Shown: piece by piece, positions 39,724-59,655 of the stretch | Position numbering within the stretch: the first letter of the stretch is position 1 | Layout: each line of letters opens with the position of its first letter | Assembly (NCBI RefSeq): GCF_008107445.1 | Contig: NZ_VSLD01000001.1 | Coordinates: forward strand, 434,001-498,000 | Length of the DNA stretch: 64,000 bases | Direction: 5' to 3' | Source: Arthrobacter echini | GTDB lineage: Bacteria > Actinomycetota > Actinomycetes > Actinomycetales > Micrococcaceae | Translations under genes and position numbers: made by a program | The notes under the pieces: model-generated | What the model saw: only the letters and a program-made list of their open reading frames with translations | Told to the model about the DNA's origin: nothing | Databases searched by the model: none

Positions 39724-41595
<1,872 letters not shown>

Positions 41596-41650
41596 GCAAG
41601 TTCCTTTCGACTGCCCGGGATTGCGAGGCGCTCATCCGCCGGGCGCGTAG

Positions 41651-41671
41651 ATTGAGCGTTCTGCACTCAAC
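41651..41671 (-). promoter_or_regulatory. HAIR element 1 of the dnaK operon
   Basis: ATTGAGC, 7 nt, ACTCAAC (41651-41671) matches the HspR operator, with the TTGAG and CTCAA cores intact. It overlaps the -10 box of the dnaK promoter. Confidence 0.88.
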
Positions 41672-41698
41672 TATAGTCGCGCGTGCCCGGCGGGACAA
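41670..41698 (-). promoter_or_regulatory. dnaK promoter
   Basis: On the minus strand TTGTCC (-35, 41693-41698) and TATAGT (-10, 41670-41675) are spaced by 17 nt. It is the clearest vegetative promoter in this region. HAIR 1 starts at the -10 box and HAIR 2 lies just upstream of the -35, so HspR can block access. Confidence 0.75.
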
Positions 41699-41703
41699 AT
41701 CGA

Positions 41704-41724
41704 GTTGAGCCACCTCCGCTCAAC
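41704..41724 (-). promoter_or_regulatory. HAIR element 2 of the dnaK operon
   Basis: GTTGAGC, 7 nt, GCTCAAC (41704-41724) is a perfectly symmetric HspR-type inverted repeat. It lies 53 nt centre to centre from the first, five helical turns apart, which would suit cooperative binding. Confidence 0.8.
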
Positions 41725-41825
41725 CCTGTGAATGGCCCGATCGATTGCAACGATTTGGTCTCCCTGGCGATGCCAGCCGCCGAAAAAGGTATACCAAAGC
41801 TCCGAGCCGTTGCTAGGATCATCGG

Positions 41826-41915
41826 GCGAGCAGCAGCTCGCCGACAAAGGCAAACCCGATGCAAATCGGGGACGCAAAGCCACGGGACCCAAGAGGTCAG
41901 CCGGGCCGCCGAAGA
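41826..41915 (+). promoter_or_regulatory. c-di-GMP-I (GEMM) riboswitch, A-type at the ligand position
   Basis: The core ACAAAGGCAAACC is followed by the P1b hairpin CCGAT-GCAA-ATCGG with a GNRA tetraloop (41855-41868). Next come GGGACGCAAAGCC (41869-41881), a GACC/GGTC stem (41886-41898), and GCCGGGCCGCCGA at the 3' end. Order and spacing match the GEMM-I fold. By alignment to the Vibrio Vc2 RNA, the base equal to G20, which contacts the ligand, is an A here. The usual closing helix P1 is not obvious. Instead a 7-bp GGCGAGC/GCTCGCC hairpin (41825-41842) precedes the core. A TAGGAT box (41814-41819) fits a start just before it. The response regulator starts 115 nt downstream. Confidence 0.9.
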
Positions 41916-42029
41916 GAACAGGTTCACGAAGCATGATTCGGACATCCCACGTCCCACTGGTTTCCGAACCGGCCGGCATCGTCTGGCCTCCTCCGGCTCC
42001 CCGCGCGGATCGCAGCGGAGCTACGGTCC

Positions 42030-42824
42030 ATGAGTAGCGCCTCTCCCGGAGACGGCCGGACCGCCGTCGTCATCGAGGACGATCTCGAGATCCGCAACCT
42101 CGTCTGCGCCGTGCTGGAGCAGGGCGGCTTCCAGGTCAGCTCTGCAGCCAGCGGACGCGAAGGTGTCAAGGTGGTCCGGGAGAAGTTGCCCACAGTGGTG
42201 ACCCTGGACATCGGGCTTCCCGACATCGATGGATACGAGGTGCTGCGGCGCCTGCGCTCCGACTCCGACTGCTACGTGGTGGTGCTGAGTGGACGCGCGG
42301 ACGAGATGGACATCCTCACCGCCCTGCAGGCCGGCGCCGACGACTACGTCCTCAAACCCTTCCGCCCACGTGAGTTGCGGGCCCGCATCGACGCGATGCT
42401 CCGCAGACCGCGGAGGCAATCGGCCCTACCTCCACCTCCTTCACCGCCCCGGGCCACCCAGGCGGACCTGACGCCTGACGCCGCGTCCCTGCTGCGCGTA
42501 GGCAGCCTCGTGATCGACGGCGACGCCCGCACGGCCACGTGTTCCGGCGTCGAACTGCAGCTCACCAAGACGGAATTCAATCTGCTGCACGACCTGGCCC
42601 GGAGCAACGGCGCGGTCCGGACCAAGAACGAACTGGTCCGGGTGGCCCGCGGACGCGACTATCGCGGTTACAACTTCGTGAGCCGCACCGATGAGCGGGC
42701 CATCGAGGTGCACATCGCCAATCTCCGCCAGAAGCTCGCCCGCGGACACGACGAGTCCACTCTGATCGCCACGGTGCGCGGGGTGGGCTTCCGGATGATG
42801 GAGCAGAGCGACGAGTCCTGCTAG
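42030..42824 (+). CDS. OmpR/PhoB-type response regulator under a c-di-GMP riboswitch
   Basis: The 264-residue regulator has a receiver domain with acidic pocket Glu/Asp (VVIEDDLEIRN) and phospho-acceptor Asp in VVTLDIGLPDIDG. The Thr/Ser-Lys switch residues are in VVLSGRAD and DYVLKPFRP. A proline-rich linker (PPPPSPPRATQ) and a winged-helix domain follow (LTKTEFNLLHDLARSNG, IEVHIANLRQKL). It binds DNA when phosphorylated. A GGAG site precedes ATG 42030. No histidine kinase is adjacent. A gene for an Hpt protein lies tail to tail with it. The upstream riboswitch makes its level depend on a cyclic dinucleotide. Confidence 0.93.
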   Translation: MSSASPGDGRTAVVIEDDLEIRNLVCAVLEQGGFQVSSAASGREGVKVVREKLPTVVTLDIGLPDIDGYEVLRRLRSDSDCYVVVLSGRADEMDILTALQAGADDYVLKPFRPRELRARIDAMLRRPRRQSALPPPPSPPRATQADLTPDAASLLRVGSLVIDGDARTATCSGVELQLTKTEFNLLHDLARSNGAVRTKNELVRVARGRDYRGYNFVSRTDERAIEVHIANLRQKLARGHDESTLIATVRGVGFRMMEQSDESC

Positions 42825-43276
42825 GGGGTATTGGACCGCCCGGGGTAGTTGGCGAGCAGCTCCCTGGTGGTGATCGCGGCGCTGACATGGAGGTCGGCGA
42901 GGGCGCGTCGGGCAACCTCCAGGGTGTCACCGGTAATGAGGTACTGCACGCCGAGTGCCACCTCGGTCAGCTGCAGGGCGCCCACCATCATGGAGGACGT
43001 GGTCACGCTGTGCAGAGCATCTGCTGCCCCCGCCACGTCACCCGAGTCGAGAAGGCGATCCACGCGATGGATCTTCCCGTCGAGTGAGTCGCAGAAATCG
43101 TGGGCGAACTGGGCAACCACCGTCCTGTCCGTGAAATCGTCCTCCATGGCGCGCAGCACGCCGGGGTCGACGACGGCCGGTCCGGCGGTGGCGGGACCGT
43201 GCACGACGTCGTCGTGATCCGTTGCTGCTGCCGCGTCCTCATGGGGTTCGGACGGCGGAGTCGATTGGCTGGGCAC
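42821..43276 (-). CDS. Hpt (histidine phosphotransfer) domain protein
   Basis: The 151-residue protein has a Ser/Pro/Asp-rich N-terminus and an Hpt four-helix domain. The phospho-accepting His lies in ALHSVTTSSMMVGALQLTE, preceded by DRLLDSGDVAGAADALHSV. Hpt proteins relay phosphate between hybrid kinases and regulators. Its stop shares the palindrome CTAG with that of the response regulator, so the pair is tail to tail with 4 bp of overlap. The start (GTG 43276) is uncertain, and MEDDFTDRT near 43150 is also possible. A partner kinase is not in the window. Confidence 0.78.
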   Translation of the reverse strand: MPSQSTPPSEPHEDAAAATDHDDVVHGPATAGPAVVDPGVLRAMEDDFTDRTVVAQFAHDFCDSLDGKIHRVDRLLDSGDVAGAADALHSVTTSSMMVGALQLTEVALGVQYLITGDTLEVARRALADLHVSAAITTRELLANYPGRSNTP

Positions 43277-43438
43277 CTCATTAGGGTAGCGATACCGGCT
43301 GAGAGCATTTCGGTGTCCGCATGTTCCTGCGCAAAGCTTGCGTAACGATATGGACACGCGGTATCTCGGGCGTTTCCGGCGTTGTAGGGCAACAGACGAA
43401 CCGGCTCAGGACCGCACAGGAATGGGAGATATTCACCT

Positions 43439-59523: not shown

Positions 59524-59655
59524 TAATCAAGAGTTCCAGCCATAGGCCCTGGCCGGCTGGACAGCAACCCTCTCCCGTAGTGGGGTGCTCCAGGTGAAGA
59601 TTCGGCCGCCGGGTCAAGTCCCCCGGTTGGCAAGTACGGTGTCGTGCGGTCCTGC
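59524..59655 (+). promoter_or_regulatory. SAM-IV riboswitch
   Basis: The RNA follows the SAM-IV layout: helix P1 AATC/GATT (59525-59528 with 59599-59602), then TTCCAGCC...GGCTGGA, the conserved CAGCAACCCTCT and GTGGGGTGCTCCAGGTGA core, a CCGGG/CCCGG hairpin near 59610-59628, and GGCAAG (59629-59634) that forms the pseudoknot. This class binds S-adenosylmethionine and lowers expression when SAM is abundant. It lies 150 nt upstream of the ABC transporter operon at 59805 on the same strand. Confidence 0.93.

Follow-up and report, generated by a model that had tools for sequence, protein, structure and literature searches.

A c-di-GMP-I-class aptamer, an overlapping leader ORF and an OmpR-type response regulator gene in Arthrobacter echini

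Which ligand would an aptamer upstream of a two-component regulator gene read, and by what route could it act on that gene? The question is raised by a stretch of 64,000 nucleotides from Arthrobacter echini (contig NZ_VSLD01000001.1, positions 434,001 to 498,000), hereafter called the window, in which all coordinates are counted from the first letter. An earlier note on this DNA had placed a GEMM (c-di-GMP-I) riboswitch ahead of a response regulator gene and had read A in place of the ligand-reading G20. We examined the aptamer, its pocket, the stretch between aptamer and regulator, and related loci in other genomes.

Identity of the aptamer and its ligand pocket

The following features define the locus:

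41840-41914, + strand: c-di-GMP-I class aptamer, with A19 at 41848, G20 at 41849, A47 at 41876, C92 at 41909 and a GNRA-type loop, GCAA
42030-42824, + strand: OmpR-type response regulator of 264 aa (Response_reg PF00072, 1e-26; Trans_reg_C PF00486, 2.8e-16)
42821-43357, − strand: HPt-domain protein, convergent with the regulator, the 3′ ends overlapping (PF01627, 4.7e-5, 24.0 bits, just under the cut-off of 24.6)

We searched the 64-kb window against all of Rfam with cmscan and found a match to RF03167 (c-di-GMP-I-GGC) at 41840-41914 (+), with 68.6 bits (E = 3.9e-14; gathering cut-off 59 bits), which was the sole match to a c-di-GMP class in the window. The same place was matched by RF01051 (c-di-GMP-I) with 64.4 bits (E = 3.1e-12; gathering cut-off 35 bits). 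This was the only RF01051 match in the 3.16-Mb genome, and the same search gave matches in 0 of 14 control genomes. Both covariance models scored above their curated cut-offs, and the RF03167 score exceeded that of RF01051 by 4.2 bits. P2 and P3 were paired in 100% of cells over 19 orthologous sequences, with one P2 pair changed on both sides and P3 invariant. A c-di-GMP-I-class riboswitch aptamer is present, 5′ of and in line with the regulator ORF. The GEMM riboswitch of the earlier note, upstream of an actinobacterial response regulator gene, was thus borne out, the RF01051 search proposed as a check having given a significant match. The only other Rfam match listed in the window was a SAM-IV riboswitch at 59525-59642 (90.3 bits).

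We then assigned the pocket positions. In Vc2 numbering, G20 is unpaired and immediately precedes, on the 5′ side, the G21-C46 and C22-G45 pairs, and the standard c-di-GMP pocket consists of G20, A47 and C92. In the RF03167 alignment the window is gapless between the 5′ strand of P1 (41842-41843) and the inner GC pairs (41850-41851 with 41874-41875), and the base directly 5′ of these pairs, the position-20 equivalent, is G41849 (RF03167 model position 10). A41848 occupies RF03167 model position 9 and is position 19, directly 5′ of the ligand-reading G. It corresponds to RF01051 model position 10, for which the consensus shows 'a' in a line ('uaaugaaAAaGGCAAAc') read from alignments of related loci and not from that of the window itself. 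The A reported in place of G20 was a register error by one base. This correction matters, since no ligand-switching base is in fact present.

The RF03167 alignment, read with the RF01051 consensus, gave G at 41849, A at 41876 and C at 41909 as the pocket equivalents. In alignment A1 of the 19 distinct orthologous leaders, columns 37, 64 and 97 (positions 20, 47 and 92) were invariant and column 36 (position 19) was variable. We also inspected 40 aptamer loci fetched with the model out of 54 aptamer places from the family and genus searches. Position 20 was G and position 47 was A in 40/40, while position 19 was A in 20, G in 14 and C in 6; position 92 was assigned from the RF03167 alignment of the window and the alignment of the 19 orthologues. 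The G20 equivalent, called a selectivity factor in Cd1 (PMC9262584), is unchanged in the window aptamer. Judged by this comparison, the pocket is that of a plain c-di-GMP-I aptamer, although RF03167 scores higher.

That higher score, like the name of the best-scoring family, would point to a variant pocket that reads some other ligand. 'GGC' presumably refers to the G that the RF03167 consensus has at the position-47 equivalent, where the window has A as ordinary c-di-GMP-I aptamers do, and because of this difference we rejected the 'GGC' pocket. With the G20, A47 and C92 equivalents canonical and invariant in the orthologues, a variant pocket is improbable. The reading as a cGAMP (GEMM-Ib) or dual-ligand riboswitch depended on A at position 20, and once the register was corrected, no support was left for it. 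GEMM-Ib cGAMP riboswitches of Geobacter carry A at this position, whereas G stands there in the window, in the orthologues and in all the fetched loci. A genome search for cyclic-dinucleotide enzymes, of the kind suggested in the earlier note, gave 8 matches to GGDEF and 10 to EAL. It gave no match to a SMODS (DncV-type) cyclase, for which the same search was positive in 3 of 14 control genomes. The Asp of the GHxxGD motif, at which Hypr enzymes presumably differ, was present in 7 of the 8 GGDEF matches, and the motif search gave no call for the eighth (L028). We rejected G20A with cGAMP specificity and regard it as barely conceivable; what the window shares with the Geobacter RNAs is the overall aptamer fold (PMC8835794, PMC6274999). 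The GGDEF and EAL matches, the missing SMODS match and the usual Asp make c-di-GMP the expected ligand, whose binding we infer.

The window aptamer shares with c-di-GMP-I riboswitches of RF01051 a score above the cut-off, P2, P3, the GNRA-type loop, the pocket equivalents and a sense orientation 5′ of a gene. It differs in that a leader ORF, and not the main gene directly, follows the aptamer, and in having an additional hairpin, P0, at the 5′ end that competes with P1.

The leader ORF and its overlap with the regulator gene

Between the aptamer and the regulator lies a small ORF that the earlier note had overlooked, with these features:

41920-41923, + strand: Shine-Dalgarno-like AGGT of the small ORF, its AGG invariant in 19 leaders
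41933-42037, + strand: 34-codon leader ORF (MIRTSHVPLVSEPAGIVWPPPAPRADRSGATVHE), its stop inside the start of the regulator (ATGAGTAG)
42017-42020, + strand: GGAG within the leader ORF, a possible Shine-Dalgarno (SD) of the regulator's own, its form not kept among the 19 orthologues

The ATG at 41933 stands 18 nt past the aptamer, and the stop within ATGAGTAG is TAG. Of 129 distinct aptamer loci, 119 had a start codon with SD-like bases 17-30 nt past the aptamer core, whereas 200 shuffles gave a mean of 11.7 and a maximum of 21. Elsewhere in Arthrobacter, the start codon at this place opens a long gene at many loci. The comparison of loci shows a common SD and start geometry, into which the leader ORF of the window fits.

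Of 153 aptamers read by script, 28 are followed by a regulator orthologous to that of the window (58-100% identity), and these correspond to 19 distinct sequences. In 19/19 distinct loci we found a leader ORF out of frame with the regulator, having its own SD and a stop that overlaps the regulator start. The overlap is 8 nt in 16 loci and 4 nt (ATGA) in 3, the regulator starts of L033, L045 and L133 being taken from protein comparison for this count. The distance from ATG to ATG takes values of 91, 97, 103, 110, 115, 130, 133 and 161 nt among the 19 loci. When the intervening stretch was shuffled, the chance of an overlap was 0.08-0.57 per locus; since the loci are related, they do not count as 19 independent cases, and multiplying the per-locus chances would not yield a probability. 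Even so, the distance has varied without loss of the overlap, in three loci with a shift of frame, and this is difficult to account for without selection.

A similar arrangement has been described in M. tuberculosis for the B12 riboswitch of ppe2, where reporters showed a translated leader, uPPE2, an AUGA overlap and mainly termination-reinitiation (PMC11260477). That system and the present one, both actinobacterial, have in common an aptamer, an SD with an out-of-frame leader ORF and an AUGA-type overlap. They differ in ligand, aptamer class and target, and in that we infer the coupling here. The switch probably acts directly on the leader ORF.

Alternative pairing and the proposed control of translation

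The 5′ end of the leader contains the following features:

41811-41819, + strand: TGCTAGGAT, an extended -10-like promoter element, which would put the RNA 5′ end at about 41825
41825-41842, + strand: P0 hairpin, 41825-41831 pairing with 41836-41842, its 3′ arm overlapping the 5′ strand of P1
41837-41916, + strand: P1 in its extended form, 41837-41843 pairing with 41910-41916, which excludes P0

A general sigma-70 scan found no + strand promoter in 41590-42860. TGNTANNAT stood at a fixed place in 18 of the 19 distinct orthologous leaders, which suggests that the RNA probably begins at P0, near 41825. In the 19 sequences of A1, 94.0% of cells were paired for P0 (columns 13-19/24-30) and 93.0% for extended P1 (columns 25-31/98-104), six pairs being counted for the latter. 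Columns 25-30 are common to both, and P0 and P1 are therefore mutually exclusive. By this comparison, both can be formed in most orthologues. The outermost pair of P0 fails in 8 of 19 sequences, and P1 of the window is mismatched at 2 of 7 positions (41840 x 41913 and 41841 x 41912). Covariation is thin, one P0 pair (C-G to U-A, in one sequence) and one P1 pair being changed on both sides, and the pair-type numbers over the whole structures were not above those of shuffles (463/500 and 272/500).

Computed energies favoured P0 over P1 by 4.4-12.1 kcal/mol without ligand, the largest preference, 12.1 kcal/mol, belonging to the window's own sequence, whose P1 has an extra mismatch. In constrained folding the mean unpaired value of the SD was 0.41 in the P0 state and 0.36 in the P1 state; the SD was more open by more than 0.1 in the P0 state in 5 of 19 sequences and in the P1 state in 1 of 19. 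We rejected anti-SD switching because SD pairing showed no consistent change between the two states. With SD pairing hardly different, any occlusion would have to come from the closeness of P1. We also dropped the idea that GGACC in P3 pairs with the SD, since P3 is part of the aptamer and L107 would disrupt such a helix.

We consider it likely that the locus carries an ordinary c-di-GMP-I riboswitch acting on translation, in which the leader ORF is gated and the regulator follows by termination-reinitiation. The RNA would start near 41825 and, in the absence of ligand, P0 would hold the 5′ strand of P1. Binding of c-di-GMP in the G20/A47/C92 pocket would stabilise P1, whose 3′ strand would end three bases before the SD of the 34-codon leader ORF, and P1 formation would change how often ribosomes enter this ORF. 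Ribosomes finishing the leader ORF would then reinitiate at the overlapping ATG that opens the regulator gene. The level of c-di-GMP would in this way set the amount of the regulator, and phosphorylation, perhaps via the neighbouring HPt protein, would set its activity. The earlier idea that a cyclic dinucleotide controls how much of a two-component output protein is present is thus supported, and probably holds. As to direction, we lean towards an OFF switch, in which P1 beside the SD would block ribosome entry in the presence of c-di-GMP. The genes behind other such aptamers include those for a secreted protein with a GH26 match and a WhiG/FliA-like sigma factor; the usual logic of c-di-GMP would suggest opposite switch signs for these two, which speaks against the proposed mechanism.

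Other routes of expression were weighed against this mechanism. The small ORF might be untranslated or irrelevant, the switch acting through transcription termination, Rho, RNA decay or the regulator's own start. The possible GGAG before the regulator start in the window would fit such a route, as would the prediction that SD accessibility does not change between states. However, a search of the + strand in 41590-42860 gave no intrinsic terminator, conservation of the regulator's own SD is poor, the SD and ATG of the small ORF take the place that the main gene's start has behind other aptamers, and the start-stop overlap recurs in every distinct locus. We regard this route as unlikely. A sensing leader peptide that stalls the ribosome, with a conserved start functional as peptide, is less probable still and in our judgement very doubtful: an M-x-R-T N-terminus does occur in 16 of the 19 distinct leader ORFs, but the peptide is poorly conserved past the first codons, and in the RNAalifold consensus a conserved CGGAC can pair with GUCC beside the SD, which explains the conservation equally well.

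A recurrent module and the wider family of aptamers

Gating of a leader ORF ahead of the regulator would concern a gene set that recurs in Arthrobacter and consists of the aptamer, a small ORF, an OmpR-type regulator gene and a convergent HPt gene. Against NCBIfam, the best 25 of 101 matches of the regulator were OmpR-type regulators, with MtrA first and all far below the cut-off. The HPt gene lies beside the regulator in 26 of the 28 loci, the available sequence ending first in the other 2; the module was found via the aptamer, and the count covers only regulators with an aptamer. Of 149 family genomes searched, 6 contained close relatives of the HPt protein (E < 1e-20); all 6, among them the genome of the window, belong to the same genus. 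DnaK (39724-41595, − strand) was dropped as a part of the module, being a neighbour in only 6 of the 28 loci within the sequence available.

Within the genus, 32 of 38 genomes had RF01051 matches; within the family, under stricter filters, 13 of 197 had them. A DNA pattern occurred in at least 118 stretches of the genome collection, chiefly from Arthrobacter, Cellulomonas and Actinotalea, with a few other groups. The script that read the aptamers recovered 153 in 152 of 158 loci (two in L080, and at most one per strand of a locus) and missed L030, L036, L040, L065, L098 and L108.

Several other genes were observed behind related aptamers. Diverged paralogues of the regulator follow the aptamer directly at L004:1592-2212 and L011:1588-2499, where the ORF continues in frame into the receiver domain; the match in L004 is to the receiver domain only. 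The Asp of the window regulator's LDIGLP motif, which we take from family knowledge to be the phospho-acceptor, is replaced by Ser in L004 and by Gly in L011. In L006, L015, L029, L041 and other Arthrobacter loci, the aptamer precedes secreted-looking proteins of about 410-430 aa with IPT-like stretches seen by eye, and the protein of L006 matched Glyco_hydro_26 (1.3e-8). In a family member, at L007:105-228, an aptamer precedes the apparent start of a Flp/Fap pilin at a contig end (PF04964, 23.4 bits; cut-off 32.2).

In three loci (L161, L147 and L073), c-di-GMP-I-type aptamers lie just before a gene for a BldC-family regulator. For L161, from Cellulomonas denverensis, the first 60 residues matched NF033787 with 95.6 bits (cut-off 77), and L147 and L073 show by eye the same BldC-type stretch. 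In L075, from Cellulomonas marina, the aptamer precedes a 308-aa sigma factor of WhiG/FliA-like look with an extra N-terminal stretch; its first 100 residues gave 35.3 bits with NF004935, far below the cut-off, and no Pfam match, and a sigma factor of this type followed an aptamer at no other locus among those collected. In loci such as L052, L061, L066, L104 and L124, from Cellulomonas and Actinotalea, the aptamers precede similar small ORFs of about 38-63 codons, often of the form MDQRG... ...VPAQR.... The ORF of L052, the one searched, had no Pfam match. These ORFs are possibly a c-di-GMP-controlled family of small proteins. Two loci of Arthrobacter type (L118 and L146; WNZI01000019.1 and WNZI01000001.1) come from a record titled Vibrio cholerae 35D, with a DnaK 97% identical to that of the window, and this record is mislabelled or contaminated.

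In Actinobacteria, c-di-GMP is known mostly through protein receptors. Examples include BldD and WhiG (PMC9530166). Among the titles and abstract openings listed from the open-licence literature, none described an actinobacterial response regulator gene preceded by a c-di-GMP riboswitch; the aptamer family is known, and as far as this literature was surveyed, the arrangement of leader ORF and response regulator for c-di-GMP has not been described. We put at about even the chance that Arthrobacter and the wider Micrococcales use c-di-GMP through translational riboswitches on regulators, of OmpR type via a gated, out-of-frame leader ORF with coupling by termination-reinitiation and, in Cellulomonas relatives, of the BldC family and WhiG/FliA-like type. 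If this is true, the two-component system would need two inputs, the level of the messenger for the amount of the protein and phosphate for its activity. Conserved control of a two-component regulator through RNA, with a leader ORF as its immediate target, would then show how a diffusible messenger and a phosphorelay are brought together at a single gene.
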